Shown: piece by piece, positions 20,782 through 41,820 of the stretch | Layout: every line of letters begins with the position of its first letter | How positions within the stretch are numbered: position 1 is the first letter of the stretch | NCBI RefSeq assembly: GCF_011044975.1 | Contig: NZ_JAAKZV010000024.1 | Span: forward strand, 1-54,381 | Reading direction: 5' to 3' | DNA length: 54,381 bases | Source of the DNA: Streptomyces coryli | GTDB lineage: Bacteria > Actinomycetota > Actinomycetes > Streptomycetales > Streptomycetaceae | Notes under the pieces: model-generated | What the model was told of the DNA's origin: nothing | Database searches by the model: none | Seen by the model: only the letters and a program-made list of their open reading frames with translations | Program-made: the position numbers and the translations under genes

Positions 20782-20838
20782 GATCGCCGAACAAAGGTGG
20801 TCTTGCTGGCCGCAGAAGTCGTCCTTAGGGTGACTGCC

Positions 20839-22032
20839 GTGACCTCGCCACCAGTTCAGTCGCCGGGCGACGTGCTGGCGCTGATCAGCGCCGGCTCCGC
20901 CGCCACCCGCGCCGAGATCGCCCGGCTGACCGGCCTCGCCCGCTCCACCGTCTCGCAGCGCGTCGACGCGCTCATCGCGCACGGCTTCGTCGACGAGACC
21001 GCCGACGCCGGCTCCACCGGCGGCCGCCCGCCGCGCCGGCTCAGCCTGCGCACCCGGGAGCACGCCGTGGCGGGGGTCGACCTGGGCGCCTCGCACTGCC
21101 GGGTGGCGCTGCTGGACATCGGCGGCTCCCTGCTGGCCGTACGGGAGGACCCGCTGAAGATCGCGGACGGGCCGCGGGCGGTGCTGGCGCATGTGGACCG
21201 CACGCTGCGGACGCTGCTGGCGGAGACCGGCCGCGGGCAGCACACCCTGCGGGCGATCGGGGTCGGGGTGCCGGGCCCGGTGGAGTTCTCCACCGGCCGC
21301 CCCGTGGACCCGCCGATCATGCCGGGCTGGCATCAGTTCCCGATCCCGGAGTACTTCGCCGAGCACTACGGGGTCCGCGCCCTGGTCGACAACGACGTCA
21401 ACGTGATGGCCCTGGCCGAGCAGCGCCAGGCCTTCCCCGGCACCCGCTATCTGCTCTACCTGAAGGTCGGCACCGGCATCGGCTGCGGCATCATCGCCGA
21501 CGGCCGGCTGCACCGCGGCGCCCAGGGCTCGGCCGGCGACATCGGGCACATCCGGGTCGGCGAGCGCGAGGAGCTGTGCCGATGCGGCAACTCCGGCTGC
21601 CTGGAGGCGATCGCGGGCGGCGCGGCGCTCGCCGAACGGCTGACGGAGCTGGGGCTCGAGGCGCGCTCGGGCCTCGATGTCGTACGCCTCGTCCAGGAGG
21701 GCAACCGCGACGCCGTACGGATGGTGCGCGAGGCCGGGCGGGCCGTCGGCGAGGTGCTGTCGGGGCTGGTCAACTTCTTCAACCCCGAGACGGTGGTGGT
21801 CGGCGGCGCCCTCGCCGCGGTCCACGACCAGCTGCTCGCCGGCGTCCGCGAGGCGGTCTACCGGCGCTCGCATCCGCTCGCCACCCACGTGCTGCGGATC
21901 GAGCCGAGCCGCACCGGCGAGAACGCCGCCGCGGTGGGCGCCGCCATCCTCGGAATCGAGCACGCTCTGTCACCTGCGCAGGTCGACCGGGCGCTGCTGC
22001 AGGGCGGGCTGAAGTCGCCTGCGATCGGCTAA
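20839..22032 (+). CDS. ROK-family transcriptional regulator
   Basis: A 397-residue ROK repressor. An N-terminal MarR-like winged helix spans about residues 5-65 (TRAEIARLTGLARSTVSQRV). A sugar-kinase-like domain follows, with VDLGASHCRVALLDIGGS, VGVPGPVEF, DNDVNVMALAE and the zinc site HIRVGEREELCRCGNSGCLE. GTG at 20839 is preferred, since AGGG lies 8 bases before it; GTG at 20797 or 20830 are alternatives. It is divergent from the sugar ABC/ThuA operon and most likely represses it until a sugar binds. Confidence 0.92.
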   Translation: MTSPPVQSPGDVLALISAGSAATRAEIARLTGLARSTVSQRVDALIAHGFVDETADAGSTGGRPPRRLSLRTREHAVAGVDLGASHCRVALLDIGGSLLAVREDPLKIADGPRAVLAHVDRTLRTLLAETGRGQHTLRAIGVGVPGPVEFSTGRPVDPPIMPGWHQFPIPEYFAEHYGVRALVDNDVNVMALAEQRQAFPGTRYLLYLKVGTGIGCGIIADGRLHRGAQGSAGDIGHIRVGEREELCRCGNSGCLEAIAGGAALAERLTELGLEARSGLDVVRLVQEGNRDAVRMVREAGRAVGEVLSGLVNFFNPETVVVGGALAAVHDQLLAGVREAVYRRSHPLATHVLRIEPSRTGENAAAVGAAILGIEHALSPAQVDRALLQGGLKSPAIG

Positions 22033-25671: not shown

Positions 25672-25700
25672 TTGACGCGTCAACTCGCCTTCTCTACGGT
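25672..25700 (+). promoter_or_regulatory. promoter A of the arabinose locus
   Basis: TTGACG (25672-25677) and TACGGT (25695-25700) are separated by 17 bp, ahead of the secreted GH51 gene. The same -35 hexamer and spacing recur at two other promoters of the locus, which makes this call stronger than a single match would. Confidence 0.75.
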
Positions 25701-25701
25701 G

Positions 25702-25738
25702 CCGTTCGAAGTACTGACCATTGTCCGGCATCTCGAAC
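25702..25738 (+). promoter_or_regulatory. operator region A: CCGTTCGAAGT and GTCCG-N6-CGAAC
   Basis: CCGTTCGAAGT (25702-25712) lies at the expected transcription start, and the pseudo-palindrome GTCCGGCATCTCGAAC (25723-25738) lies 22 bp after the -10. The same pair occurs at promoter B with the same 20-bp offset, and the palindrome also at promoter C. It is probably a repressor site. Confidence 0.7.
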
Positions 25739-25753
25739 GAGAGGCTCCCCCAC

Positions 25754-28246
25754 ATGCCACCCAGACGCCGCCGGCTCGGGCTCGCCCTGAGCGCGCTGAG
25801 CGCTCTGCTCGCCGGTACGCTGCTCGCCCCCGCCCCCGGAGCGGCCGCCGAGCCCACCGACTACACGATCGACGTGGAGACGGCGGGCAGCGGCGCGACG
25901 ATCGACGACTCGATGTACGGGGTCTTCTTCGAGGACATCAACCAGGCCGCGGACGGCGGCATTTACGCCGAGCTGGTGCAGAACCGCTCCTTCGAGTACG
26001 AGGCCGCCGACAACCCCGGCTACACCCCGAAGACCGGCTGGGATACCGGCGGCACCGCCGAGGTGCGGGACGACGACGGGCGGCTCAACGCCCGTAACCG
26101 GCACTATCTGGCGCTCGGCGCCGGCGCCTCGGCGACCAACGGCGGATTCAGGACCGGGATCGCCGTCGAGGAGGGCAAGACCTACGACTTCTCGCTCTGG
26201 GCCCGCGCCGACGGCGACGCGCCGCTGGAGATCTCGCTCGCCGACGGCGACGGCGCGCTCGGCGCCGCCCAAAAGGTCACCGCGAGTGGCAAGTGGGCCA
26301 AGTACGAGGCCGCGTTCACCGCGGACCGCACCTCGGCCACCGGCCGTCTCACCGTGAAGGCGGGCGGCACCCCGGCCGCCGTCGACATGGTGTCGCTCTT
26401 CCCGCGCGACACGTACAAGGGCCGCGCGAACGGGCTCCGCAAGGACCTCGCCGAGAAGGTCGAGGCGCTGGACCCCGGCTTCCTCCGCTTCCCCGGCGGC
26501 TGCCTGGTCAACACCGGCAGCCACCAGGGATACGACGAGGGCTCGGGCTGGGAGCGCAAGCGGTCGTATCAGTGGAAGGACACCATCGGCCCGGTCGAGA
26601 CCCGCGCCACCAACGCCAACTTCTGGGGCTACAACCAGAGCTACGGCCTCGGCTACTACGAGTACTTCCAGTTCGCCGAGGACATCGGTGCCATGCCGCT
26701 GCCGGTCGTGCCCGCGCTGGTCACCGGCTGCGGGCAGAACAAGGCGACCGACGACCCGGAGCTGCTGAAGCGGCACATCCAGGACACCCTCGATCTGATC
26801 GAGTTCGCGAACGGGCCCGCGACCAGCGAATGGGGCGCCAAGCGCGCGGAGATGGGGCACCCGGAGCCGTTCGGCCTCACCCACCTCGGGGTGGGGAACG
26901 AGGAGAACCTGCCGGACGAGTTCATGGCCCGCTTCAAGGAGTTCCGGGCCGCCATCGAGGCGAAGCACCCGGACATCACGGTGGTCTCGAATTCCGGCCC
27001 CGACGACTCCGGCACCGTCTTCGACCGGGCGTGGCAGCTCAACCGGGACAACGACGTGGCGATGGTCGATGAGCACTACTACAACAGCCCGCGGTGGTTC
27101 CTGGAGAACAACAACCGCTACGACTCCTACGATCGCAACGGCCCGAAGGTGTTCCTCGGTGAGTACGCCTCCCAGGGCAATACGTTCGGCAACGCCCTGG
27201 CCGAGGCCGCGTACATGACTGGGCTCGAACGCAACGCGGACGTCGTCAAGCTCGCCTCGTACGCCCCGCTGCTGGCCGGCGAGGGCACGGTGCAGTGGGA
27301 GCCGGACATGATCTGGTTCGACAACACCAGATCCTGGGGCTCGGCGAACTACGAGATGCAGAAGCTCTTCATGACCAGCACCGGCGATCAGGTCGTGCCC
27401 TCGAAAGCCTCAGGGACACCGGCCACCTCCGGCCCGATCACCGGCGCGGTCGGGCTGTCCACCTGGGCCACCAGCGCGGCGTACGACGATGTGCGGGTGA
27501 CGGGCGCGGACGGCGGCGAGCTGCTCGCCGACGACTTCGCCGCCGGCGACGGCAAGTGGACGCAGGCCACCGGCGCCGGGTCGTGGGCGGTCCAGGACGG
27601 GGCGTACGTCCAGTCCGACGAGGCCGCCGAGAACACCCTGGTCACCGCCGGCGACACCGGCTGGCACGACTACGACCTGAAGGTGAAGGCCACCAAGAAG
27701 TCCGGCAAGGAGGGCTTCCTCGTCGCCTTCGGCGTCAAGGACACCGGGAATCTGTACTGGTGGAACCTCGGCGGCTGGGGCAACACCGCGTCCGGCGTCG
27801 AGCGGCACGTGTCGGGCGGCAAGGAGACGATGCTCCAGGACGCCACGAAGATCGAGACGGGGCGCACATACGACGTCGAGGCGAAGGTGCGCGGCCGGTC
27901 CGTGGCGCTGTATCTCGACGGCGAGAAGTGGGGCGAGTTCACCGACGACAAGCAGGCCGAGCCCTTCCGGCAGGTCGTCACCAGGGACAAGGCCACCGGC
28001 GACCTGATCGTCAAGGTGGTCAACGCACAGGAGAGCGCGGCCCGTACGAAGGTGGCGCTGGGCGCGGGCAGCAGCCCCGAGGCCACGGCGGAGGTCACCA
28101 CGCTGGCCGCGGACCCGGCGGCGGAGAACACGGCGGACGCGCGGCCGGTGAAGCCGGAGACGTCGGAGTTCGACGGGGTCGCGGAGAACTTCGCGTACAC
28201 CTTCCCGGCGCACTCCGTCACGTTCCTGCGGATCAAGGGCGCATGA
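25754..28246 (+). CDS. secreted GH51 alpha-L-arabinofuranosidase with inserted domain
   Basis: An 830-residue exported arabinofuranosidase that removes arabinose side chains from arabinan or arabinoxylan. The signal peptide ends near residue 33 (PGAAA). Then come MYGVFFEDINQAADGGIYAE, a carbohydrate-binding-like stretch (about 85-225) and FLRFPGGCLV. The acid/base Glu is in GVGNEENLPDEF (near 378) and the likely nucleophile in VFLGEY (near 468). A jelly-roll-like domain of about 170 residues (about 575-745: DDFAAGDGKWTQ, LYWWNLGGWGNT) is inserted before the final beta domain. ATG 25754 follows GAGAGG. It is transcribed alone from promoter A. Confidence 0.93.
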   Translation: MPPRRRRLGLALSALSALLAGTLLAPAPGAAAEPTDYTIDVETAGSGATIDDSMYGVFFEDINQAADGGIYAELVQNRSFEYEAADNPGYTPKTGWDTGGTAEVRDDDGRLNARNRHYLALGAGASATNGGFRTGIAVEEGKTYDFSLWARADGDAPLEISLADGDGALGAAQKVTASGKWAKYEAAFTADRTSATGRLTVKAGGTPAAVDMVSLFPRDTYKGRANGLRKDLAEKVEALDPGFLRFPGGCLVNTGSHQGYDEGSGWERKRSYQWKDTIGPVETRATNANFWGYNQSYGLGYYEYFQFAEDIGAMPLPVVPALVTGCGQNKATDDPELLKRHIQDTLDLIEFANGPATSEWGAKRAEMGHPEPFGLTHLGVGNEENLPDEFMARFKEFRAAIEAKHPDITVVSNSGPDDSGTVFDRAWQLNRDNDVAMVDEHYYNSPRWFLENNNRYDSYDRNGPKVFLGEYASQGNTFGNALAEAAYMTGLERNADVVKLASYAPLLAGEGTVQWEPDMIWFDNTRSWGSANYEMQKLFMTSTGDQVVPSKASGTPATSGPITGAVGLSTWATSAAYDDVRVTGADGGELLADDFAAGDGKWTQATGAGSWAVQDGAYVQSDEAAENTLVTAGDTGWHDYDLKVKATKKSGKEGFLVAFGVKDTGNLYWWNLGGWGNTASGVERHVSGGKETMLQDATKIETGRTYDVEAKVRGRSVALYLDGEKWGEFTDDKQAEPFRQVVTRDKATGDLIVKVVNAQESAARTKVALGAGSSPEATAEVTTLAADPAAENTADARPVKPETSEFDGVAENFAYTFPAHSVTFLRIKGA

Positions 28247-28250
28247 CAGA

Positions 28251-28292
28251 GCTCCGCCCCGTCGGCTCGTCAGGAAGCCGGCGGGGCGGAGC
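28251..28292. terminator. bidirectional terminator, GH51/aldose epimerase
   Basis: GCTCCGCCCCG (28251-28261) pairs with CGGGGCGGAGC (28282-28292), with a smaller inner stem CGGCT/AGCCG. It begins 4 bases after the GH51 stop and ends 11 bases before the end of the convergent epimerase gene. Confidence 0.8.
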
Positions 28293-28303
28293 GGTCCGCG
28301 GGA

Positions 28304-29461
28304 TCAGCTGACGCCGAAGGAGTGCACCGTGGTGGTCCGGTACGTATCCCCCGGGCGCAGCACCGTCGACGGGAAGTTCGGCTGGTTCGGGGAGTCCGGG
28401 AAGTGCTGGGTCTCCAGGCAGAAACCGTCGCCCTGGCGGTAGACGCTGCCGGAGGTGCCGGTGATCGTGCCGTCGAGGAAGTTTCCCGTGTAGCACTGCA
28501 CGCCGGGCTCCGTGGTGGCGATGGTCATCGTGCGGCCGGAGCGCGGCTCGCTGACGGTGACGAAGCGCTCGGGGGCGCGGGTGCTGCCCTTGTCGAGGAC
28601 GAAGTTGTGGTCGATGCCCTGGCCGTAGAGCTGCTGCTGGTGGGCGACGCGGATGTCCTTGCCGATCGCCTTGCCCGCCCGGAAGTCGAAGGGGGTGCCG
28701 GCGACCGGGGCGAGCTCGCCGGTGGGGATCAGGGTCTTGTTGACCGGGGTGTAGCGGGCGGCGGCAAGCTTCATCTGATGGCCGTAGATGTCGCCGGTGC
28801 CCTCGCCCGCGAGGTTGAAGTACGTGTGGCTGGTGAGGTTCACGATCGTCGGCTTGGACGTGGTGGCCCGGTAGTCGATGCGGAAGTCGCCCGCCGCGGT
28901 GAGGGTGTAGTCGACGCGGGTGCGCAGGGTGCCCGGGTAGCCCATTTCGCCGTCGGCGCTGACGTAGCGCAGGATCAGGCCGACGTCGCTGCCGCGGCTG
29001 AACGGCTCGACGTCCCAGACGCGCTTGTCGAAGCCCTGCGTGCCGCCGTGCAGGCTGTTCTCGCCGTCGTTCTGGGGCAGTTGGTAGGTGGTGCCGTCGA
29101 GGGTGAAGCGGCCGCCGGCGATGCGGTTGCCGTAGCGGCCGATGAGCGCGCCGAAGTAGGTCCCGGCGTTGACGTAGCCGTCGACGTCCGCGCAGCCGAG
29201 GGAGACGTTGGCGTACCGGCCGCGGGCGTCGGGGAGCTCCAGGCGGTGCACGATGCCGCCGTAGGAGAGGACGCCGAGCTTGGTGCCGCCGTTCTCGAGG
29301 GTCCAGAGGTCCACGCGGGTGCCGTCGGCCAGCTTGCCGAAGGGTCTGCGGGTCGGCTTTGTTTTTTGTGCCTGTGACTGTGCCTGTGCGGGGGCGGCGA
29401 GTCCTGCGGCGGCCAGGCCGCCGGCCGTGGCCGCGATGACGCCTCGTCTGCTGATGGGCAT
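28304..29461 (-). CDS. galM: exported aldose 1-epimerase (GalM family)
   Basis: A 385-residue mutarotase that interconverts alpha and beta anomers of a sugar, here probably arabinose. A Tat-type signal opens the chain (SRRGVIAATAGGLAAAGLA, ending near AQAQ), so it is exported folded. Family motifs are GALIGRYGNRIAGGRF, NSLHGGTQGFD, LTSHTYFNLAGEG (catalytic His), DHNF and the C-terminal FCLETQHFPDSPNQP (catalytic Glu). ATG at 29461 has GGGAAAGGGA upstream. It is driven by promoter C, back to back with the intracellular GH51 operon, which ties it to arabinose use. Confidence 0.93.
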   Translation of the reverse strand: MPISRRGVIAATAGGLAAAGLAAPAQAQSQAQKTKPTRRPFGKLADGTRVDLWTLENGGTKLGVLSYGGIVHRLELPDARGRYANVSLGCADVDGYVNAGTYFGALIGRYGNRIAGGRFTLDGTTYQLPQNDGENSLHGGTQGFDKRVWDVEPFSRGSDVGLILRYVSADGEMGYPGTLRTRVDYTLTAAGDFRIDYRATTSKPTIVNLTSHTYFNLAGEGTGDIYGHQMKLAAARYTPVNKTLIPTGELAPVAGTPFDFRAGKAIGKDIRVAHQQQLYGQGIDHNFVLDKGSTRAPERFVTVSEPRSGRTMTIATTEPGVQCYTGNFLDGTITGTSGSVYRQGDGFCLETQHFPDSPNQPNFPSTVLRPGDTYRTTTVHSFGVS

Positions 29462-29486
29462 GAGAAGTCCCTTTCCCCAAGCCTGA

Positions 29487-29502
29487 GTTCGAAATATCGG
29501 AC
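29487..29502 (-). promoter_or_regulatory. operator C: GTCCG-N6-CGAAC
   Basis: Read on the minus strand, GTCCGATATTTCGAAC lies 21 bp after the -10 of promoter C. It matches the sites of promoters A and B in sequence and in distance from the -10. A second TTCGAA lies just ahead of it (29508-29513). Confidence 0.7.
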
Positions 29503-29523
29503 ACCGTTCGAAGTGCTGGCGTG

Positions 29524-29552
29524 AACCTACGGCTGCCACCTGGCACCGTCAA
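29524..29552 (-). promoter_or_regulatory. promoter C, aldose epimerase
   Basis: On the minus strand TTGACG (29547-29552), a 17-bp spacer and TAGGTT (29524-29529) face the epimerase gene. The predicted leader is about 55 bases. Confidence 0.7.
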
Positions 29553-29567
29553 CGCTCCCCGCACCCG

Positions 29568-29582
29568 TCGAAAGCCTTTCGA
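29568..29582. promoter_or_regulatory. palindrome at the centre of divergent promoters B and C
   Basis: TCGAAAGCCTTTCGA has perfect 7-bp arms around one base. It lies between the two -35 elements, 15 bases from each. That place suits an activator site or an auxiliary operator for looping. It shares the TTCGA core with the other sites. Confidence 0.5.
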
Positions 29583-29597
29583 ATTCTGCGCGAGCCG

Positions 29598-29626
29598 TTG
29601 ACGTGCCTTTCGCGCACACCTACCTT
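29598..29626 (+). promoter_or_regulatory. promoter B, intracellular GH51/ABC operon
   Basis: TTGACG (29598-29603) and TACCTT (29621-29626) are 17 bp apart, upstream of the GH51 gene at 29689 and the ABC importer genes that follow it. Confidence 0.75.
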
Positions 29627-29663
29627 CCGTTCGAAGTCTTGATCAGTGTTCGGTATCTCGGAC
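29627..29663 (+). promoter_or_regulatory. operator region B: CCGTTCGAAGT and GTTCG-N6-CGGAC
   Basis: CCGTTCGAAGT (29627-29637) adjoins the -10, and GTTCGGTATCTCGGAC (29648-29663) lies 21 bp after it. The layout copies operator A almost base for base. Confidence 0.7.
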
Positions 29664-29688
29664 ATCAGCAAGCCGTGAGAGGACCCGC

Positions 29689-31212
29689 ATGCCCTCCCCC
29701 ACCGCCCGTTTCGCCCTGCACCCCGCCTTCACGGTCGGCCAGGTGCACCCCCGGCTCTTCGGCTCCTTCGTCGAGCACCTCGGCCGCTGCGTCTATACGG
29801 GCATCCACGAGCCCGGTCACCCCGAGGCAGACGCCGCGGGCCTGCGCCAGGACGTGCTCGCCCTGGTCCGCGAGCTCGGCGTCACCGCGATCCGCTATCC
29901 GGGCGGCAACTTCGTCTCCAACTTCCGCTGGGAGGACTCGGTCGGGCCGGTGGCGGACCGCCCGCGCCGCCTCGACCTCGCCTGGCGCACCACCGAGCCG
30001 AACGCCTTCGGGCTGAGCGAGTTCATGGCCTTCCTGAAGAAGCTGGGCCCCGACGCCGAGCCGATGCTCGCCCTCAACCTCGGCACCCGCGGCGTCGCCG
30101 AGGCCCTCGAGCTCCTCGAATACGCCAACCACCCCGCCGGCTCCGCCCTCGCAGAGCGTCGCATCGGGCACGGCGACAAGGAGCCGTTCGGCGTCCGCAT
30201 GTGGTGCCTCGGCAACGAACTGGACGGCCCCTGGCAGACCGGCCACAAGACCGCCGCCGAATACGGCCGGCTGGCCGCCGAGACCGCCCGCGCCATGCGC
30301 CAGTACGACCCTGAGCTGACCCTCGTCGCCTGCGGCTCCTCCAACCAGGGCATGCCCACCTTCGGCGCCTGGGAGGCCGAGGTCCTCACCGAGACGTACG
30401 ACCTCGTCGACCACATCTCGCTGCACGCCTACTACGAGGAGAAGGACGGCGACCGCGACTCCTTCCTCGCCTCCGCCGCCGACATGGACTCCTTCATCGA
30501 GAACGTCGTCGCCACCTGCGACCACGTCGGCGCCAAGCTGAAGTCGGACAAGCGCATCCAGCTCTCCTTCGACGAGTGGAACGTCTGGTACCAGCACCGC
30601 TTCCACGAGCAGATCGAAGCCGAGCCGCTCGACTGGCCCGAAGCCCCGCGGCTGCTGGAGGACCACTACACCGTCACCGACGCCGTCGTCTTCGGCTCGC
30701 TCCTCATCACCCTGCTGCGGCACGCCGACCGGGTCACCGCCGCCTGCCTGGCCCAGCTGGTCAACGTCATCGCGCCGATCATGACCGAGCCGGGCGGCCC
30801 GGCCTGGCGGCAGACCACCTTCTTCCCGTTCGCGCAGGCCTCCCGGCACGGGCGCGGGGAGGTGCTCGATGTACGGGCGGACTCGCCGACGTACCGGACG
30901 AAGAAGTACGGCGAGGTGCCGCTGCTGCATACGACCGCGGTCCGCGACCCGGAGTCGGGCGCGGTGACCGTCTTCGCGGTGAACCGCAGCCAGTCGGAGA
31001 CGCTGCCGCTGCGGGTCGCCCTCGACGCGGGCCTGGCCCTGACCCGTATCGAAGAGCACTCCGTGCTCAGCGACGCCGACCCCGACGCCCGCAACACCCT
31101 CGAAGACCCGGAGCGCGTCACCCCCCATCCCGGCGAGGGCGCGGCCCTCGGCGCCGACGGGCTGACCGCCGAACTCGAGCCGCTGTCCTGGACCATGATC
31201 CGCCTCGCCTGA
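29689..31212 (+). CDS. abfA: intracellular GH51 alpha-L-arabinofuranosidase
   Basis: A 507-residue enzyme without a signal peptide, the standard size for intracellular GH51 enzymes. It cleaves arabinose from short arabino-oligosaccharides after import. The (beta/alpha)8 barrel shows FGSFVEHLGRCVYTGI and IRYPGGNFVSNFRWEDS. The acid/base Glu is in CLGNELDGPWQTGHK (near residue 174) and the nucleophile in SFDEWNVWY (near 294), the positions known for the family. The C-terminal beta domain ends LSWTMIRLA. The ABC importer genes follow after 28 bases, so uptake and hydrolysis are one operon. Confidence 0.96.
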   Translation: MPSPTARFALHPAFTVGQVHPRLFGSFVEHLGRCVYTGIHEPGHPEADAAGLRQDVLALVRELGVTAIRYPGGNFVSNFRWEDSVGPVADRPRRLDLAWRTTEPNAFGLSEFMAFLKKLGPDAEPMLALNLGTRGVAEALELLEYANHPAGSALAERRIGHGDKEPFGVRMWCLGNELDGPWQTGHKTAAEYGRLAAETARAMRQYDPELTLVACGSSNQGMPTFGAWEAEVLTETYDLVDHISLHAYYEEKDGDRDSFLASAADMDSFIENVVATCDHVGAKLKSDKRIQLSFDEWNVWYQHRFHEQIEAEPLDWPEAPRLLEDHYTVTDAVVFGSLLITLLRHADRVTAACLAQLVNVIAPIMTEPGGPAWRQTTFFPFAQASRHGRGEVLDVRADSPTYRTKKYGEVPLLHTTAVRDPESGAVTVFAVNRSQSETLPLRVALDAGLALTRIEEHSVLSDADPDARNTLEDPERVTPHPGEGAALGADGLTAELEPLSWTMIRLA

Positions 31213-31240: not shown

Positions 31241-32587
31241 ATGGAACCACGACCTCCCCTGACCCGGCGCCGCGCGCTCGCCGGCGCGGGCGCGCTGGCC
31301 GCCGCCGGCGCGCTGTCCCCGCTCGCCGCCGGCTGCTCGGCCCCGTACGACACGGTCGCGTCCGACAAGACCCGGCTGCGCTTCTGGCATCTCTACGGCG
31401 GCGGCGACGGCGTCAATATGACGGCGATGCTGGACGCCTTCGCCGCCGGACACCGCGGCATCGACCTCCAGGCCACCGTGCTGGAGTGGGGCGCGCCGTA
31501 CTACACCAAGCTCGGCATGGCGGGCGCCGGCGGCCGGGCGCCCGAGATAGCCGCGATGCACCTGGCCCGGGTGCCGGGCTTCGCACCCGGCAAGCTGCTC
31601 GACCCGTTCGATCTCGACCTGCTCGCCGAACTCGGGGTGAAGCCGGAGGACTTCACCAAGGAGATGTGGGAGCGCGGGCAGTTCGGCGGCAAGCAGTACG
31701 CCATCCCGCTCGACACCCACCCGATGGTCCTCTACTACCAGACGGAGCTCTGCGAGAAGGCCGGGCTGCTCGACGGCGACGGCAGGCTGAAGCCGATCGA
31801 GTCCACCGGGGACTTCACCGCCGCGCTGCGGGCGGTCAAGAAGGTCACCGGCGGCCCGGCGCTGATCACCGAGACGCTGGGCCCGGACGTCGTCGGGCCG
31901 TGGCGGCTGTTCGCCACCTTCTACGCCCAGAGCGGCGGCCGGGTGCTGTCCGCCGACGGCAAGCGGATCGAGCTGGACGACGCCAAGGCGCTGAAGGTGC
32001 TCGACTACCTCGCCCGGCTCGGCGAGGAGGGGCTGATGCTGCGCCGCGCCGACTACCCCGGCTCGATCGGGCAGTTCAGCGGCGGCAAGTTCGGCTTCCT
32101 CCTCAACGGCGAGTGGGAGGTGTCCACCTTCAAGACCGCCAAGATGAAGTTCTCCATGACCCGCACCCCCGGCCTCTTCGGCCCGCCGAAGACATTCGCC
32201 GACTGCCATGCCTTCGTGCTGCCGCACCAGGAGGGCCGCGGCGGCGCCCCCGACCGGGCCGCGCACACGCTGGCCGCCTGGATGCTCAAGCACTCGGTGG
32301 ACTGGGCGAAGGGCGGCCATGTGCCGGCCTACACCCCGGTCCTGGACGACCCGGCGTACGTCAAGCTCAAGCCGCAGTCGGAGTACCGCGGCGTGATCGA
32401 CGACGTCGTCCTCGACGACCCCGCCTGGTTCGCCGGCTCCGCCTCCCGCATGTGGATCGAGCTGGGCGGGGTCTTCTCCGGAGTGCTCACCGGCACCCGC
32501 AGTCCGCGGGGCGCCGTCGCCGAGGCGAGGAAGCGGCTGCGGCAGCTCCTCGACACCCCCAACCCCCTTCCGGGAGCCGAGTCATGA
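31241..32587 (+). CDS. oligosaccharide ABC transporter, binding lipoprotein
   Basis: A 448-residue family-1 extracellular solute-binding protein. A twin-arginine-like leader (LTRRRALAGAGALAAAG) runs into the lipobox LAAGC, so it may be a Tat-exported lipoprotein. Motifs are TRLRFWHLYGGGDGVNMTAM, QYAIPLDTHPMVLYYQTEL, FGFLLNGEWEVSTFK and the cytoplasm-distant FADCHAFVLPHQ. By position it binds arabino-oligosaccharides. The stop overlaps the permease ATG. No ATPase is encoded in the operon; a shared MsiK-type ATPase elsewhere is the usual solution in Streptomyces. Confidence 0.92.
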   Translation: MEPRPPLTRRRALAGAGALAAAGALSPLAAGCSAPYDTVASDKTRLRFWHLYGGGDGVNMTAMLDAFAAGHRGIDLQATVLEWGAPYYTKLGMAGAGGRAPEIAAMHLARVPGFAPGKLLDPFDLDLLAELGVKPEDFTKEMWERGQFGGKQYAIPLDTHPMVLYYQTELCEKAGLLDGDGRLKPIESTGDFTAALRAVKKVTGGPALITETLGPDVVGPWRLFATFYAQSGGRVLSADGKRIELDDAKALKVLDYLARLGEEGLMLRRADYPGSIGQFSGGKFGFLLNGEWEVSTFKTAKMKFSMTRTPGLFGPPKTFADCHAFVLPHQEGRGGAPDRAAHTLAAWMLKHSVDWAKGGHVPAYTPVLDDPAYVKLKPQSEYRGVIDDVVLDDPAWFAGSASRMWIELGGVFSGVLTGTRSPRGAVAEARKRLRQLLDTPNPLPGAES

Positions 32588-33540
32588 CCACGGCAGCCAC
32601 CACCCCCGCATCGACCGCGGCACCGGCGCGCGCACCCGCCGCCGCCCCGGCCGGGATCCGCCGCCCCTGGACGGAGCACGGGCTGCTGTTCGTCGCCCCG
32701 TTCCTGCTGATATACGCGGGCTTCCTGCTCTGGCCGCTGCTGTCCGGGCTGTGGATGAGCTTCACCGACGCGGACATCACCGCACGCGGCTCGACCTTTA
32801 CGGGCCTCGACAACTACACCGAGGCGCTGTCCGACCCGGACGTGTGGGCCTCGCTGTGGAACACCGTCTGGTTCACCGTCCTGTCCACCATCCCGCTGGT
32901 GCTCCTCGGCCTGCTGCTGGCGCTGCTCGCCAACGAGCTGAAGGTGGTGCAGTGGCTGTGGCGGCTGAGCTGGTTCGCGCCCTTCATGCTGCCGTCCGGC
33001 GTGGTGTGCCTGCTCTTCCTGAACATGATCTACCAGCCGGAGTTCGGCCTCGCCGACCAGCTGTTCGCCGTCTTCGGCCTGCACCCGGACATCGGCTGGC
33101 TGACCGACGAGCGGTACGCGATGCTGTCGATCGCCGCGACCACGGTCTGGTGGACGGTCGGCTTCAACTTCCTGCTCTACCTGGCCGCGCTGCAGTCCAT
33201 CCCCGCCCACCTCTACGAAGCCGCGGAGCTGGACGGCGCCGGCCCCTGGCAGCGGCTGAAGCACATCACGCTGCCGATGCTGCGCCGCACCACGGTGCTG
33301 GTGCTGGTGCTGCAGCTGCTGGCCTCGCTGAAGATCTTCGACCAGGTGTACCTGATGACCGGCGGCGGCCCCGACGACTCGACCCGGGTGGTGCTGCAGT
33401 ACGTCTACCAGCAGGGCTTCACCGGCTACCGGATCGGCTACGCCTCCGCCGTCTCGTACATCTTCTTCGCCATGATCCTGATCGTGTCCCTGATGCGCCC
33501 GTGGCTGTCCCGGCGACGTGCCGAGGAGGCCGCCCGATGA
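32584..33540 (+). CDS. oligosaccharide ABC transporter, permease 1 (MalF type)
   Basis: A 318-residue permease with six predicted membrane segments. An Ala/Pro-rich N-terminal tail precedes LLFVAPFLLIYAGFLLWPLL. The EAA loop is YEAAELDGAGPWQRLKHITL, which contacts the ATPase. GGGPDDSTRVVLQYVYQQGF near the C-terminus is a family hallmark. It overlaps both neighbours by 4 bp. Confidence 0.94.
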   Translation: MTTAATTPASTAAPARAPAAAPAGIRRPWTEHGLLFVAPFLLIYAGFLLWPLLSGLWMSFTDADITARGSTFTGLDNYTEALSDPDVWASLWNTVWFTVLSTIPLVLLGLLLALLANELKVVQWLWRLSWFAPFMLPSGVVCLLFLNMIYQPEFGLADQLFAVFGLHPDIGWLTDERYAMLSIAATTVWWTVGFNFLLYLAALQSIPAHLYEAAELDGAGPWQRLKHITLPMLRRTTVLVLVLQLLASLKIFDQVYLMTGGGPDDSTRVVLQYVYQQGFTGYRIGYASAVSYIFFAMILIVSLMRPWLSRRRAEEAAR

Positions 33541-34409
33541 GTGTGCTGAGTGCCCTTTCGACCCGCGACACCGGCAGCCGCAAGACGCGCTGGACCCCCG
33601 GCCGGCTGGCGCTGCTGGCCGTCGCGCTGCTGCTGACGCTCGTATGGCTGCTGCCGCTCGCCTGGGCGGTGGCCACATCGCTGAAGCCCGAGGCCGAGAC
33701 GACGCAGACGCCCCTCGCCTGGATCGGCTCGGAGATCACCTTCGAGGCGTACGCGAAGGTCTGGGAGACCGGGGATCTGCAGCGCTGGTTCCTCAACTCC
33801 GCCTTCATCTCGGTGATGACGACGCTGCTGACCGTGCTGAGCTGCGCGATGGCCGCGTACGGCTTCACCCGGACCCAATTCCGCGGCAAGAAGCTGCTCT
33901 ACGGCCTCGTGCTGGCCGGGATCATGGTGCCACCGCAGGTGCTGATGGCGCCGCTGTTCGTGGAGATGGTGCAGCTGGGCCTGGTCGACACGTACTGGGG
34001 GGTGATCCTGCCGCAGGTGGCGGAGCCGGCGATGGTGTTCATCCTGGTGAAGTTCTTCGAGGCGGTGCCGCGCGAGCTGGAGGAGTCGGCCTTCGTGGAC
34101 GGGGCCGGGCGCTGGCGGGTGTTCTTCACCATCGTGCTGCCGCTGTCCCGGCCGGTGCTGGCGGCGGTCGCCATCTTCGTGTTCATCATGAGCTGGAACA
34201 ACTTCCTGTGGCCGTTCCTGGTGACCACCGACCCGAACGGCATGACGCTGCCGGTCGGCCTCACCAACGTCCAGTCCAGCTTCGGCGTCCGCTACGCGCA
34301 GATCATGGCGTCGCTGGTGCTGGCCGCGCTGCCACTGCTGGTGATCTTCACGCTCTTCCAGCGGCAGATCGTGCGGGGCGTGGCGCATACGGGCCTCGCC
34401 GGGCAGTAG
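33537..34409 (+). CDS. oligosaccharide ABC transporter, permease 2 (MalG type)
   Basis: A 290-residue partner permease. It shows the MalG-family segments LLPLAWAVATSLKP, NSAFISVMTTLLTVLSCAMA and the EAA loop LEESAFVDGAGRWRVFFTIV. The C-terminus faces the cytoplasm (FQRQIVRGVAHTGLAGQ). It is the last gene of the operon started by abfA and is followed within 10 bases by a strong hairpin. Confidence 0.94.
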   Translation: MSVLSALSTRDTGSRKTRWTPGRLALLAVALLLTLVWLLPLAWAVATSLKPEAETTQTPLAWIGSEITFEAYAKVWETGDLQRWFLNSAFISVMTTLLTVLSCAMAAYGFTRTQFRGKKLLYGLVLAGIMVPPQVLMAPLFVEMVQLGLVDTYWGVILPQVAEPAMVFILVKFFEAVPRELEESAFVDGAGRWRVFFTIVLPLSRPVLAAVAIFVFIMSWNNFLWPFLVTTDPNGMTLPVGLTNVQSSFGVRYAQIMASLVLAALPLLVIFTLFQRQIVRGVAHTGLAGQ

Positions 34410-35544: not shown

Positions 35545-36351
35545 CTACTCCGCTTCCGCGACCAGCACCTCCACCCCGTCGGCCTGGAGGGCGTCGAGGT
35601 CGGACGCCGGGATGCCGGAGTCGACGATGACGAGGTCGAAGGCGCTGACCGGGGCGAGCTGATACAGCCCGCGGCGGCGGAACTTGGTGTGGTCGACCAG
35701 CAGGATCCTGCGGGCGGCGGCGTCCATCAGGGCCCGCTTCACCGCCACCGTCTCCTGCGACTGGTGGTAGCACTGGCCGCGGGTGATCGCGGTCGTGGAG
35801 GCGAAGAGCGTGTCGGCGTAGAGGCTGGTCACGGCGTCCACGGTGCGCAGCCCGAGGAAGGCGTCGTACGCGGGGTAGTAGGTGCCGCCCAGCGAGATCA
35901 GCTCGACCCCGGGGCTGCCGGCGAGCGCCTGCGTGACGGGCACGAAGTTGGTGATCACGGTCAGCGGCGCGCGCTGGGCGAGGAGGCGGGTGAGCGCCAG
36001 CGCGGTGGTGCTGTCGTCGACGATGACCGACTGCCCGGTCCTGACCAGGGGCAGGGCGGCGCGGGCGAGCGCGTTCTTCTCCGCCACCATGGCCTGGGTG
36101 CGGTGCCGGACGTCGCCGTGGAACGCGGTCGAGGGCTGGGCCGTCGCGCCGCCGCGGACCTTCCGCAGCCATCCCCGGCTCTGCAGATAGTCGAGGTCCC
36201 GCCGGATGGTCATGGGCGTCACGCCGAGCTCGTCGGCCAGCTGCTCGATCCGTACGAACCCTTCGTCCACGACGCGGCCTTTGATCCGCTCCCGCCGCTC
36301 ACGAGGCTTACGTCCGCTCATGTCGGCCGGCCGGGGGATCTCTGCCTCCAT
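35545..36351 (-). CDS. DeoR-family transcriptional regulator
   Basis: A 268-residue DeoR repressor. The N-terminal helix-turn-helix is RIEQLADELGVTPMTIRRDL at about residues 34-53, followed by LRKVRGGA. The C-terminal phosphosugar-sensing domain has VIVDDSTTALALTRLL, GGTYYPAYDAFLG and LLVDHTKFRRRGLYQLAPVSAFDLVIVD. It is divergent from the sugar ABC/kinase operon and very likely represses it, responding to a phosphorylated sugar made by the operon's kinase. ATG at 36351 follows AGGAG. Confidence 0.94.
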   Translation of the reverse strand: MEAEIPRPADMSGRKPRERRERIKGRVVDEGFVRIEQLADELGVTPMTIRRDLDYLQSRGWLRKVRGGATAQPSTAFHGDVRHRTQAMVAEKNALARAALPLVRTGQSVIVDDSTTALALTRLLAQRAPLTVITNFVPVTQALAGSPGVELISLGGTYYPAYDAFLGLRTVDAVTSLYADTLFASTTAITRGQCYHQSQETVAVKRALMDAAARRILLVDHTKFRRRGLYQLAPVSAFDLVIVDSGIPASDLDALQADGVEVLVAEAE

Positions 36352-36376
36352 GAAGTCTCCTGTTCCTTTTCTGTGA

Positions 36377-36405
36377 AGTGAACATCCTGGTATTCAGCGG
36401 ATCAA
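36377..36405 (-). promoter_or_regulatory. possible deoR promoter
   Basis: On the minus strand TTGATC (36400-36405) and TTCACT (36377-36382) are 17 bp apart, 25 bp before the deoR ATG. The -10 match is weak. Confidence 0.35.
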
Positions 36406-36500
36406 CCCTGTTCGTCATGCCTTCTGAAGCGGCAACTCCTGCTGAGCGAACATTTCCGGTGGGGGAATGGGCGGGCCGACTGTGCAGTTTTTGAGGCCAG

Positions 36501-36529
36501 TTGACACTATTGAAACACCCTTGTTTCGT
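36501..36529 (+). promoter_or_regulatory. promoter of the sugar ABC/kinase operon with embedded operator
   Basis: TTGACA (36501-36506) is a consensus -35; a 17-bp spacer leads to TTTCGT (36524-36529). The inverted repeat GAAACACCCTTGTTTC (36512-36527, arms of 6 bp around CCCT) fills the spacer and enters the -10. A protein bound there would block polymerase. DeoR is the natural candidate. Confidence 0.6.
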
Positions 36530-36572
36530 GTGCGTTGCCTGGAGCGGCCCCCGCGAGCAAGGAGTGTGGAAC

Positions 36573-37652
36573 ATGAGGAAACTGGCCAGTTTTGCTCTTA
36601 CCGGCATCCTCGCCGTGGGCGCGCTCACGGCGTGCGCCGAAGAGCCCGGCACGAGCGATTCCGGCGCCAAGGGCGGCGGCAAGGACGCGGCCGGCAAGGT
36701 CGCGTTCCTGATGCCCGACCTCGCCTCCACCCGCTACGAGCAGTACGACGCCCCGCTGTTCAAGAAGCGGATGGGCCAGCTGTGCGCGGACTGCAAGGTG
36801 GTCTACCAGAACGCCAACAGCGACGCGTCGCTGCAACAGCAGCAGGCCAACTCCGCGATGGCGCAGGGCGCCAAGGTCATCGTCCTCGACCCGGTCGACT
36901 CGGACTCCGCGGCCACCATCGTGCAGACCGCCCAGTCCCAGGGCGTCAAGGTGGTCGCGTACGACCGTCCGATCCCCAAGAAGGCGGCCGATTTCTACGT
37001 CTCGTTCGACAACGAGGCGATCGGCTCGTCCATCGGCCAGTCGCTGGTCGACCATCTCAAGAAGACCAAGGCCAAGGGCGGCCTGCTGCAGGTCAACGGC
37101 TCCCCCACGGACGCCGCCGCCGGGCTGATCAAGAAGGGCGTGCACAAGGCCGTCGACGACAGCGGGTTCAAGCTGCTGGCCGAGTACGACACCCCGAAGT
37201 GGTCCCCGGAGAAGGCGCAGCAGTGGGTGAGCGGGAAGATCGCGCAGCACGACGACCGTATCGTCGGCGTCGTGGCCGCCAATGACGGCACCGGCGGCGG
37301 GTCGATCGCCGCCTTCAAGGCCGCCGAGAAGAAGGTCCCGCCGATCACCGGCAACGACGCCGAACTGGCCGCGGTCCAGCGCGTCATCGCGGGCGATCAG
37401 TACAACACCATCTCCAAGCCGATCAGGATCGTGGCGGAGGCGGCGGCCGAGGTCGCGCACCAGCTGATGCAGGGCAAGAAGCCCAAGCCCGACACCACGC
37501 TCTTCAAGACCCCGGCGCAGCTGTTCGAGCCGACCGTCGTGACCCAGGAGAACCTCAAGAAGGTCATCTTCGGCCCGGAGGGCGTGCTGAAGGTCAAGGA
37601 CGTCTGCACCCGCAAGTACGCCGCCGACTGCAAGCAGCTGGGTATCAAGTGA
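36573..37652 (+). CDS. sugar ABC transporter, xylose/ribose-type binding lipoprotein
   Basis: A 359-residue periplasmic-binding-protein type I lipoprotein (lipobox near LTACA). The pattern VAFLMPDLASTRYEQYDAP, LCADCKVVYQNANSDASLQQ, VIVLDPVDSDSAATIV and VVAYDRPIPKKAADFYVSFDN resembles XylF/ChvE sugar-binding proteins more than ribose ones. ATG at 36573 has AAGGAG 8 bases upstream. First gene of a six-gene operon. It probably binds a pentose, hexose or polyol. Confidence 0.93.
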   Translation: MRKLASFALTGILAVGALTACAEEPGTSDSGAKGGGKDAAGKVAFLMPDLASTRYEQYDAPLFKKRMGQLCADCKVVYQNANSDASLQQQQANSAMAQGAKVIVLDPVDSDSAATIVQTAQSQGVKVVAYDRPIPKKAADFYVSFDNEAIGSSIGQSLVDHLKKTKAKGGLLQVNGSPTDAAAGLIKKGVHKAVDDSGFKLLAEYDTPKWSPEKAQQWVSGKIAQHDDRIVGVVAANDGTGGGSIAAFKAAEKKVPPITGNDAELAAVQRVIAGDQYNTISKPIRIVAEAAAEVAHQLMQGKKPKPDTTLFKTPAQLFEPTVVTQENLKKVIFGPEGVLKVKDVCTRKYAADCKQLGIK

Positions 37653-38440
37653 CCGCGCCCGTCCTGTCCTTGAGAGGCGTCAGCAAGCAGTTCGGCGCCG
37701 TCGCCGCGCTCACCGGCATCGACCTCGATGTCGCCGCCGGTGAGGTGGTGGCCGTGGTCGGCGACAACGGCGCCGGCAAGTCCACGCTCGTCAAGATCCT
37801 CTCCGGGGTGTACGCCCCGGACGCGGGCACCATCTCCATCCACGGCAAGGACGTCGCGCCCGCCTCCCCGGCCGCGGCGCACGCCCTGGGCATCGCCACC
37901 GTCTACCAGGACCTGGCGCTGTGCGAGAACCTCGACGTCAAGGCGAATCTCTTCCTGGGCCAGGAGCTGCGGCCCTGGATGCTGGACGACGTCAGGATGG
38001 AGAAGCGCTCCTGGGAGCTGCTGCGCGAGCTGTCGGCCCGTATCCCGACGCTCAGCATCCCGGTGGCCGCGCTCTCCGGCGGCCAGCGGCAGACGGTGGC
38101 GATCACCCGGGCGCTGCTGGGCGATCCGGAGATCATCCTGCTCGACGAGCCGACCGCCGCGCTGGGCGTGGCGCAGACGGCCGAGGTGCTCAATCTGATC
38201 GAGCGGCTGAAGAGCAACGGGCTCGGTGTCGTCATGATCAGCCACAACATGGACGACGTCCGCGCCGTCGCCGACCGCGTGGCCGTGCTCCGGCTCGGCC
38301 GCAACAACGGTGTGTTCGACGCCCGCGACGTCTCGTCCGAAGAGATCGTCGCCGCCATCACCGGCGCGGCCGACAACGTCGTATCGCAGCGGGCCGCCCG
38401 CCACGCCACGGGCCGGCCGACCGAGCAGGAGGCGCCGTGA
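37649..38440 (+). CDS. sugar ABC transporter, single-cassette ATP-binding protein
   Basis: A 263-residue ATPase with one nucleotide-binding domain: Walker A GDNGAGKSTLVKIL, Q-loop VYQDLALCENLDV, signature LSGGQRQTVAITRALLGDPE, Walker B IILLDEPTAALGV and H-loop VVMISHNMDDV. Ribose and xylose systems usually use a fused double ATPase of about 500 residues, like the one at 19228. This half-length type is known from fructose-type (FrcA) systems and would act as a homodimer. GTG overlaps the previous stop. Confidence 0.94.
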   Translation: MTAPVLSLRGVSKQFGAVAALTGIDLDVAAGEVVAVVGDNGAGKSTLVKILSGVYAPDAGTISIHGKDVAPASPAAAHALGIATVYQDLALCENLDVKANLFLGQELRPWMLDDVRMEKRSWELLRELSARIPTLSIPVAALSGGQRQTVAITRALLGDPEIILLDEPTAALGVAQTAEVLNLIERLKSNGLGVVMISHNMDDVRAVADRVAVLRLGRNNGVFDARDVSSEEIVAAITGAADNVVSQRAARHATGRPTEQEAP

Positions 38441-39690
38441 CTTCCCTCGAGACCCCGGTGGCGGCGGCCGCCGCCGACCTGCAGGACGAGCGCCTGGTGA
38501 CACCGCAGGGGTTCGCCGACAGCATCCGCGCCGCGATCCGCCGGGCCAAGGGCGGGGACCTCGGGATGCTGCCCGTGGTCGCCGGCATCGTGGTGATCTG
38601 GACCATCTTCCAGGCGCTGAACCAGACGTTCCTGTCCAGCACCAACCTGGTCAATCTGGCCTTCGACATGGTGTCCCTGGGCGTCATCGCGCTGGGCATC
38701 GTCTGCGTGCTGCTGGTCGGCCAGATCGACCTGTCGGTGGGCTCGGTGAGCGGCGTCGCCGCCGCCACCACCGGCGTGGTCATGGTCCGGCACGAGCAGT
38801 CGCTGGGGCTGACGATCCTGGCGGCGGTCGGCGCGGGCGCGGCGATCGGCTGGCTCTACGGGCAGGTGCTGAACCGCTTCGGCGTGCCCAGCTTCGTCGT
38901 CACCCTAGGCGGGCTGCTGGGCTTCCTCGGCACCCAGTTGTGGCTGCTGCGCGGCGAGAACGCCATCAATCTCCCGTACGACTCCGGGCTGGTGAAGTTC
39001 GCGCAACTGTGGTTCGTCCCCGACGCGCTGGCCTACGCCTTCGCGGTGGCGGCGGCCGGCGGCTTCCTGGCCACCGGCTGGATACGGGCCCGCAGCCGGC
39101 GCGCCGCCGGGCTCTCGTCGGTCTCGCTGCAGTGGCTGTCGGTGCAGGCGCTGCTGCTGGCGGCGGGGCTGCTGTTCGCGGTCTACTACCTGAACCGCAC
39201 CCGCGGCGTGCCCTGGATGTTCATGCTCTTCGTCGCGCTGGTGCTGATCGTGCACTACGTCTTCACCAAGACGAAGTTCGGCCGGGCGCTGTACGCGGTC
39301 GGCGGCAACGCGGAGGCGGCCCGCAGGGCGGGCATCAACGTAAAAGCGGTCTACACCTCGGCGTTCATCATGTGCTCCACGCTGGCCGCGCTGGGCGGTG
39401 TGCTGGCCGCCGCCCGGCTGGCCGCGGCGAATCAGAGCACCGGCACCGCGGACGTCAACCTCAACGCGATCGCCGCCGCCGTGATCGGCGGCACCAGCCT
39501 CTTCGGCGGCCGCGGCTCGGCCTTCGCCGCCCTCCTCGGCGTCCTGGTCATCCAGTCGATCTCCAGCGGGCTCACCCTGCTCAACCTCGACTCCTCGTAC
39601 CGCTTCATCATCACCGGCGCGGTGCTCCTCGTCGCCGTCGCCCTGGACTCCGCCGCCCGCCGGTCGCGACAGGCCCACGGAAGGGGCTGA
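38437..39690 (+). CDS. sugar ABC transporter, XylH-type permease
   Basis: A 417-residue permease, longer than RbsC and like XylH, with extra membrane segments in the middle. It shows GQIDLSVGSVSGVAAATTGV, FGVPSFVVTLGGLLGFLGTQ, YAVGGNAEAARRAGINVKAV and AAAVIGGTSLFGGRGS. A soluble N-terminal tail of about 45 residues precedes the first segment. It is the only permease of the system. GTG start overlaps the ATPase stop. Confidence 0.94.
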   Translation: MTSLETPVAAAAADLQDERLVTPQGFADSIRAAIRRAKGGDLGMLPVVAGIVVIWTIFQALNQTFLSSTNLVNLAFDMVSLGVIALGIVCVLLVGQIDLSVGSVSGVAAATTGVVMVRHEQSLGLTILAAVGAGAAIGWLYGQVLNRFGVPSFVVTLGGLLGFLGTQLWLLRGENAINLPYDSGLVKFAQLWFVPDALAYAFAVAAAGGFLATGWIRARSRRAAGLSSVSLQWLSVQALLLAAGLLFAVYYLNRTRGVPWMFMLFVALVLIVHYVFTKTKFGRALYAVGGNAEAARRAGINVKAVYTSAFIMCSTLAALGGVLAAARLAAANQSTGTADVNLNAIAAAVIGGTSLFGGRGSAFAALLGVLVIQSISSGLTLLNLDSSYRFIITGAVLLVAVALDSAARRSRQAHGRG

Positions 39691-39695
39691 GGCAC

Positions 39696-41177: not shown

Positions 41178-41785
41178 CCTTGACCGTCTACCTCGTCCGG
41201 CACGGGGAGAGCGTGTGGCACGCCGAGAACCGCTACGCCGGCGTCACCGACATCGACCTCACCGACAACGGCCGCGCCCAGGCCCGTAACCTCGCCGCCT
41301 GGGCGGGGCAGGCGGAGCTGGCGGCGGTCTGGTCCTCCCCGATGCTGCGCTGCCGGGAGACCGCCGGGGAGAGCGCCACCCGGGCCGGGCTGCCGCTGCG
41401 CCTCGATCCCCGGCTGCGCGAGCTGGACTTCGGCATCGCCGAGGGGCTGACCCGCGGCGAGATGCGGCAGCGGCTGCCGGGCGAGCTCAAGGCCTTCGAG
41501 GCCGACCCGGTGGCGAACCACTTCCCCGAGGGCGAGGACCCGGCGGCGGCCGCCGAGCGCTATCTCGCCTTCCTCGCCGATCTGCGCGCCGAACACCGGG
41601 AGGGCCGGGTCCTCATCGTGGCCCACTCGACCGCGATCCGGCTCGCGCTGTGCCGGCTGCTGGGCATGCCGCTGGGCGACTACCGCCGGGCCTTCCCCTA
41701 CCTGGCCAACTGCGGCTTGAACGAACTAGTTCTCCGGGACGACAGTCCCGCTTTGCTGGCGCTCAATAAACCCGTGATCCCGTGA
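41174..41785 (+). CDS. histidine phosphatase (phosphoglycerate-mutase-like)
   Basis: A 203-residue histidine phosphatase. The nucleophile is in LVRHGES, the second catalytic region is LRELDFGIAEGLTRGEM, and the second His is in VAHSTAIRLALCRLLGM. The family includes sugar-phosphate phosphatases such as alpha-ribazole and fructose-2,6-bisphosphate phosphatases. ATG overlaps the kinase stop by 4 bp, so the two enzymes are made together. It might remove a toxic excess of the kinase product or act one step later; neither is shown. Confidence 0.92.
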   Translation: MTLTVYLVRHGESVWHAENRYAGVTDIDLTDNGRAQARNLAAWAGQAELAAVWSSPMLRCRETAGESATRAGLPLRLDPRLRELDFGIAEGLTRGEMRQRLPGELKAFEADPVANHFPEGEDPAAAAERYLAFLADLRAEHREGRVLIVAHSTAIRLALCRLLGMPLGDYRRAFPYLANCGLNELVLRDDSPALLALNKPVIP

Positions 41786-41820
41786 CGTCGCGACCCCGTG
41801 ACCTCCTGAAAGGACCTCGC

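Follow-up and report, generated by a model that had tools for sequence, protein, structure and literature searches.

Introduction

Bacteria of the genus Streptomyces play an important part in the decomposition of arabinan and arabinoxylan and serve as industrial hosts. Here we analyse an operator that lies behind three promoters (A, B and C) of arabinose-related genes in 54,381 nucleotides of Streptomyces coryli DNA (contig NZ_JAAKZV010000024.1; "the window" hereafter means this whole stretch). The closest described systems are the group 1 regulators of the IclR family, whose operator reads GTNCG-N5-6-CGNAC and for which tandem sites with centres 18-22 nt apart are described in 94 orthologous groups, not in all, in line with binding as a tetramer (PMC8222616). 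For hemicellulose utilization, a 2025 xylan study of Streptomyces sp. SirexAA-E places a BxlR-type motif, CGAANNTTTCG, at xylanase promoters and describes the IclR-like protein SACTE_5479, likened there to an allantoin regulator, as pulled down together with xylan promoters (PMC12772271). No regulator of Streptomyces arabinofuranosidases is named in the titles and abstract openings of the publications among the matches listed. One study reportedly deals with arabinose regulation in bifidobacteria.

Compared with these systems, the element in the window is a conserved operator of a known architectural kind, and its assignment to one specific IclR-family regulator, encoded outside the window, has good computational support from sequence comparison. 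Promoters A, B and C are probably the operator-promoters of an L-arabinose regulon under a single IclR-family protein, the orthologue of the one encoded at L018:4824-5597 in a related locus.

Results

The three promoters share a -35 box, a 17-bp spacer, a -10 box, a gap of 2-3 bp, a 16-bp site 1, 3 bp and a 16-bp site 2, so that the operator consists of two 16-bp sites, 19 bp apart, beginning 2-3 bp past the -10 (Table 1). The pattern TTGACG-N17-TANNNT has exactly three matches in the window, namely A, B and C, compared with a mean of 0.02 and a maximum of one in 100 dinucleotide shuffles, which bears out the common promoter layout reported by a first-pass annotation of the same DNA. The second element that this annotation described behind each promoter, GTYCG-N6-CGRAC, is likewise present: its four matches in the window (shuffles: mean 0.77, largest 3) are site 2 of A, B and C plus positions 49409-49424, where no TTGACG-N17-TANNNT promoter is found. 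The significance of these matches rests on the joint layout of promoter and site, not on the bare 16-bp pattern, which has 87 matches in 1.61 Mb (relatives plus window) and is therefore too unspecific as a regulon finder; a 38-nt matrix and a 42-position sequence model (R1) were used instead.

The first-pass annotation had also noted CCGTTCGAAGT as shared by A and B at the start point. The element is indeed shared, and it recurs, mirrored, in C. In several relatives, the sequence that follows the -10 at orthologous genes is CCGTTCGAAGTTACGAGC...ATTCGAAATATCGAACA, which contains TCG-N6-CGA twice at a distance of 19 bp, and hence CCGTTCGAAGT is, as read from the sequence, the left half of site 1, a second and weaker operator copy 19 bp from the first. 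This tandem geometry led us to set aside the reading of CCGTTCGAAGT as an independent start-point element or LacI site. In A and B, the right half of site 1 has decayed (TGACC, TGATC). On the minus strand, promoter C has the arrangement CGCCAGCACTTCGAAC-GGT-GTCCGATATTTCGAAC, a mirrored tandem with the decayed half outermost; a similar pair, CGCCAGCATTTCGAAC-GTA-TGACGAAATATCGAAC, precedes an MR_MLE dehydratase gene in locus L048.

Two further palindromes were observed around these promoters. The -35 box of promoter A lies within a perfect palindrome, TTGACGCGTCAA (25672-25683), which B and C lack, and a second one, TCGAAAGCCTTTCGAA (29568-29583), lies in the interval that separates the -35 boxes of the divergent promoters B and C, upstream of each. 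The latter resembles the CGAA-Nx-TTCG motif type of BxlR and possibly marks the target of a second regulator.

Conservation was assessed in the best 80 of 589 loci related to the glycoside hydrolase family 51 (GH51) gene of the window. The matrix was built from 14 sites at GH51 and importer promoters of relatives, with the window left out, and R1 from 46 sites of relatives. In the window, promoters B, A and C scored 40.5, 36.7 and 14.9 bits by the matrix (maximum in 20 mononucleotide shuffles of the window, 7.9 bits), and R1 gave expectation values (E) of 1.5e-8 for B, 2.1e-7 for A and 9.8e-4 for C, with the best place outside these promoters at E = 0.098. At a threshold of at least 14 bits, the matrix found 105 merged places in 57 of the 80 loci, the 14 training sites included, compared with none in the reversed loci and one in 1.6 Mb of first-order Markov sequence. 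Sorted by the gene behind them, 32 of these places belong to IclR-family genes, 29 to intracellular GH51 genes, 28 to importer binding-protein genes and 16 lie elsewhere. Thirteen of the last group have an assigned gene, i.e., GH43 (eight), an unnamed gene ahead of a ChvE-type importer (two), an MR_MLE dehydratase, a zinc dehydrogenase at a distance of 368 bp and an IclR copy that is cut off (one each); the place in L036 at 5780 adjoins an importer operon whose binding-protein start was not placed by our script, and those in L011 at 13516 and L030 at 8198 have no assigned gene. In total, 65 places precede GH51, importer or GH43 genes. Conservation of the motif upstream of orthologous GH51 genes, which the first-pass annotation had named as one test of its proposal, is thus found in many Streptomyces, and extends to importers and other arabinose genes.

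The promoter context is conserved as well: 59 of 67 matches of at least 29 bits in the relatives show a 17-18 bp spacer and a 2-3 bp gap, three show a different arrangement, and five lack such a promoter. Among 56 strong sites of relatives, the outer half-sites read GTTCG in 49 and CGAAC in 50, and the inner halves vary. A third TTCGA-like box was observed in the spacer between -35 and -10, about 18-19 bp before site 1 (e.g., at promoters of L018, L016, L031 and L052); counted as TTCGA, TTGAA or TTCAA, it occurs in 26 of the 56 strong sites and is not obvious in A or B. It is perhaps a third half-site or site.

The candidate regulator gene, L018:4824-5597, encodes 257 amino acids with the domains PF09339 (helix-turn-helix, HTH) and PF01614 (IclR_C). 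All 32 IclR genes whose start lies within a locus carry a site upstream (within 200 bp, 20 to 33.5 bits), and no such site was part of the training set. A gene resembling SMP-30/gluconolactonase follows the IclR gene in all 33 loci that contain it, and does not do so in genome G007. In G002, G007 and G376 the IclR gene stands back to back with an MR_MLE dehydratase gene; behind the latter, G007 has genes for a zinc dehydrogenase and a ChvE-GguA-permease importer, with an unnamed gene between them. The model that comes closest to the dehydratase is that for galactonate dehydratase (287 bits, below its cut-off of 311), and galactonate and L-arabinonate presumably share stereochemistry. The neighbouring enzymes suggest that L-arabinose may be oxidized, with a lactone and L-arabinonate as intermediates. 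The unnamed gene before the ChvE-type importer (L134:5124-6128, L128:11417-12178, and L003 and L004 near 17.8 kb) has an operator match in front; it gave only weak, below-cut-off Pfam matches (TIM-barrel-like, peptidase U32) and possibly encodes an enzyme of the arabinose pathway.

The gene and the sites also occur together across genomes. We surveyed 80 genomes of a genus sample (batch 1: G009-G079, seven genomes without a DNA match, G001 and G376) and 80 genomes picked for a strong match to the GH51 region (batch 2), at thresholds of E 1e-60 for the gene and 0.01 for the sites and with filters that lose weak matches. Batch 1 contains 44 genomes with gene and sites, six with the gene only, one with sites only (G013) and 29 with neither; the corresponding numbers for batch 2 are 67, 11, one (G109) and one (G153). 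Taken together, sites are present in 111 of 128 genomes with the gene vs. two of 32 without it (Fisher p = 8e-15 for batch 1 and 4e-18 for both batches, with the genomes being related and the tests hence not independent). G001, G011 and G153 have a strong match to the GH51 region, yet neither gene nor sites, and in six genomes that have the gene without such a match (G016, G027, G029, G038, G066 and G144) the single site found adjoins the IclR gene itself; therefore, GH51 alone does not explain the link. In five more genomes with the gene and no strong GH51-region match (G010, G044, G049, G056 and G065), no site was found at these thresholds. Among the 17 genomes behind the more distant loci, from which L073 was left out, an IclR orthologue is present in two, those of L057 (79%) and L064 (Actinoalloteichus, 57%), which are also the only ones of these loci with sites of at least 14 bits, that of L064 being weak (18.9 bits).

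When R1 was run on ten whole genomes, nine had 5-17 matches at E <= 1, the best of each between 5e-12 and 9e-5, and G001 had a single match at E 0.77. In addition to those at GH51 and importer operons, matches precede genes for GH43 (L109, L110, L117), secreted-type GH51 (L111, L114, L118, L126), GH62 (L119, E 0.004), an AbfB-domain protein (L120, E 0.015), GH127 (L121, E 0.018) and, at E 0.15 only, a GH54-type enzyme (L125), as well as the IclR gene (L112, L113, L116, L127) and the MR_MLE dehydratase gene. The genes behind L115, L122 and L124 (E 0.009 to 0.03) have no Pfam match. The best match in G376 (L105, C4:956655, E 1.8e-5) has no resolved gene directly behind it and a sugar-binding-protein gene about 1 kb further on, and a low-ranked one (L123) lies after an ILVD/EDD dehydratase gene, ahead of a cluster with a permease and GH43. 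The regulon with a common operator that the first-pass annotation proposed is hence well supported, whereas its description as local is too narrow, with matches spread over whole genomes.

The arabinose-related gene region occupies 25.6-34.4 kb of the window, and domain matches uphold the genes assigned to it earlier, i.e., a secreted-type GH51 enzyme, an epimerase, and an intracellular GH51 enzyme with its importer (Table 1). The N-terminus of the first enzyme is signal-like, and its secretion is predicted. The best DNA match to 28304-31212 among 392 genomes is only 83%, over the intracellular GH51 gene, and consequently no genome in this set is a close stand-in for the species of the window. 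Elsewhere in the window, a ROK-family regulator gene (20797-22032) has no R1 match nearby. A second sugar cluster without these operators (35545-41785) combines a DeoR-type regulator with a Peripla_BP_4 sugar-binding protein, an ATP-binding cassette (ABC) ATPase, an FGGY kinase and a histidine phosphatase-family gene; the latter is followed by an open reading frame (ORF) of 399 amino acids (41782-42981) with no Pfam match at 0.001 (Cu_bind_CorA at 0.0066 is below the cut-off).

Table 1. Promoters, operator sites and genes of the arabinose region, in window coordinates.
Feature	Position	Strand	Details or evidence
Promoter A	25672..25700	+	-35 TTGACG 25672-25677, 17-bp spacer, -10 TACGGT 25695-25700
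Promoter A operator site 1, GTTCGAAGTACTGACC, right half decayed	25704..25719	+	sequence reading, matrix, R1
Promoter A operator site 2, GTCCGGCATCTCGAAC	25723..25738	+	matrix, R1, GTYCG-N6-CGRAC match
GH51 arabinofuranosidase with CBM_4_9, secreted type, 830 amino acids	25754..28246	+	ASD1_dom, Alpha-L-AF_C, CBM_4_9
Aldose 1-epimerase, 385 amino acids, gene behind promoter C	28304..29461	-	PF01263, E 1.6e-92
Promoter C operator site 2, GTCCGATATTTCGAAC on minus strand	29487..29502	-	matrix, R1, GTYCG-N6-CGRAC match
Promoter C operator site 1, CGCCAGCACTTCGAAC on minus strand, left half decayed; CCGTTCGAAGT element on plus strand	29506..29521	-	
Promoter C	29524..29552	-	-35 TTGACG 29552-29547, -10 TAGGTT 29529-29524
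Promoter B	29598..29626	+	-35 TTGACG 29598-29603, -10 TACCTT 29621-29626
Promoter B operator site 1, GTTCGAAGTCTTGATC, right half decayed	29629..29644	+	sequence reading, matrix, R1
Promoter B operator site 2, GTTCGGTATCTCGGAC	29648..29663	+	matrix, R1, GTYCG-N6-CGRAC match
ArfA-type GH51 arabinofuranosidase, 507 amino acids	29689..31212	+	NF051901, 723.6 bits vs. cut-off 625
ABC importer sugar-binding protein	31241..32587	+	SBP_bac_8 / SBP_bac_1
ABC permease 1	32620..33540 (32620 is the first base used in searches, not a called start)	+	BPD_transp_1 in ORF 31486-33540
ABC permease 2	33537..34409	+	BPD_transp_1

Discussion

The operator could not be matched to a known regulator by the first-pass annotation, which expected a link to LacI or GntR genes. 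The motif type, the tandem spacing, the IclR gene preceded by the same site and the co-occurrence of gene and sites overturn the former statement and, taken together, point to one IclR-family protein rather than to the families expected. Under this model, two regulator dimers (a tetramer) would bind the tandem 16-bp sites, 19 bp apart. With transcription assumed to start about 7 nt after the -10, the sites, which begin 2-3 bp after it, would cover the start point and the first transcribed bases and reach roughly to +30. Since the sites follow directly on the -10 and lie over the start point, repression is the likeliest mode of action, and from this position we infer that a single protein represses these promoters and that, in the absence of inducer, it would sit on the sites and block transcription initiation. 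Upon entry of arabinose or arabino-oligosaccharides, the regulator would bind L-arabinose or an early oxidation product and be released, so that debranching enzymes, importers and catabolic genes would be made together.

Several observations weigh against this interpretation. The window itself contains no IclR gene, which would have to reside elsewhere in the genome of the same strain, and promoter C is the weakest of the three (14.9 bits by the matrix). No place of at least 14 bits was found in 23 of the 80 loci, i.e., L066-L080 (fifteen loci, none named Streptomyces), L001, L063 and six Streptomyces loci (L020, L051, L056, L059, L060 and L065). At the genome level, no site at E <= 0.01 was found in 17 of the 128 genomes that carry the gene, the tests of co-occurrence are not independent because the genomes are related, and the gene is present in 78 of the 80 GH51-selected genomes of batch 2, so few genomes separate the gene from GH51. 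Finally, G013 has one weak site and no gene, and G109 has GH51 and four sites (among them C146:642-682 and 9363-9403) without an IclR or MR_MLE orthologue, for which an assembly gap (possible, given contig numbers above 1000), gene loss or another regulator may account.

Alternatively, a LacI-family (BxlR-like) or ROK repressor might act on TTCGAA boxes, with CCGTTCGAAGT as its own palindrome. Within CCGTTCGAAGT, TTCGAA forms a perfect palindrome centred on CG, a form that is LacI-like; G376 has a LacI gene in the vicinity of its IclR gene, the window carries the ROK gene mentioned above, and a BxlR-type motif is described at the SirexAA-E xylanase promoters (PMC12772271). Yet the conserved unit is TCG-N6-CGA, present twice at 19 bp, and not a single CG-centred palindrome, the ROK gene has no R1 site, and the LacI gene of G376 is the only one among the site neighbours examined (regulators, LacI genes included, were not searched for systematically) vs. 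32 of 32 for IclR. We therefore regard this explanation as improbable. Equally improbable, in our view, is that the IclR-family protein is an activator, or dual-acting, at these promoters. In favour of it, PobR and PcaU, IclR-family proteins with this motif type, are activators; against it, the sites of A, B and C and of most relatives are downstream of the -10 and cover the start point, and the -35 and -10 boxes are near consensus.

It is slightly less probable still that two regulators share the operator, another protein occupying site 1 and the IclR-family protein site 2. As this explanation would have it, the symmetry of site 1 is poorer than that of site 2, most markedly in the window; however, the fixed 19-bp spacing, the same half-sites in both copies and their mirrored order in C speak for one protein, and tandem binding has been published for IclR proteins (PMC8222616). 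Recent duplication without regulatory meaning, suggested by the common 11-bp block and identical spacing of A and B, is very improbable and already contradicted, since the element is conserved ahead of unrelated gene families in many species and also ahead of the IclR gene.

Hence, we favor the hypothesis of a single IclR-family repressor, and its outcome is one testable candidate protein, an operator defined base by base and a predicted genome-wide regulon. A bolder version, which we advance tentatively and would not yet rate as an even bet, is that this repressor might be the master switch of L-arabinose use across Streptomyces and at least one actinomycete outside the genus (L064). It would link arabinosidases of several families (GH43, GH51, GH62 and GH127, and perhaps GH54), together with two importers, to a pathway for L-arabinose that is oxidative and non-phosphorylating and comprises a dehydrogenase, an SMP-30 lactonase and an MR_MLE dehydratase, and it might sense an intermediate of this pathway rather than a phosphorylated sugar. 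An oxidative arabinose pathway is suggested by the gene neighbourhoods, and its intermediates may be the inducer. If true, the model would provide an arabinose-inducible promoter native to Streptomyces.

Among known regulators, KdgR, of the IclR family, governs the breakdown of plant polysaccharides and the metabolism of keto-deoxy sugar acids, including that of pectin and 2-keto-3-deoxygluconate. The models of NCBIfam nearest to the IclR gene are BhcR (170.5 bits), KdgR (163.9 bits) and PcaR/PcaU, all below cut-off. KdgR is thus one of the two nearest models; the candidate scores below the KdgR cut-off of 275 bits, and the targets of KdgR are pectin and 2-keto-3-deoxygluconate genes, whereas those found here are arabinose genes. 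The KdgR operator, moreover, is A/T-rich and belongs to another group, unlike the GTTCG/CGAAC sites reported here (PMC8222616). BxlR, a LacI-family regulator of xylose and xylan genes, resembles the present case in controlling Streptomyces hemicellulases and in having TTCG and CGAA in its motif (PMC12772271), but differs in family and in that its half-sites, CGAA-Nx-TTCG, are in the opposite order and closer together; in the conserved unit described here, TTCG comes before CGAA. GylR is similar to our proposal as an IclR-family carbon-source repressor released by pathway intermediates (PMC9732521), yet it serves the glycerol operon of Streptomyces, and the likeness drawn here is one of family and role.

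The closest correspondence is with the group 1 IclR regulators (HutR, CatR, PcaR, NdgR/LtbR and others), which have the same kind of half-sites and tandem spacing (PMC8222616): site 2 of A, B and C and the outer half-sites of the relatives follow the group 1 form, the 19-bp spacing of A, B, C and the matrix sites lies within the described range, and the gene that carries the site upstream in the relatives encodes the IclR HTH and IclR_C domains. The stem "arabin" is absent from the main text of that study, and an earlier prediction of the regulon in its supplementary tables is possible. The named members of group 1 act on amino acid, aromatic and other pathways (PMC8222616), whereas the targets of the operator described here are arabinose genes.

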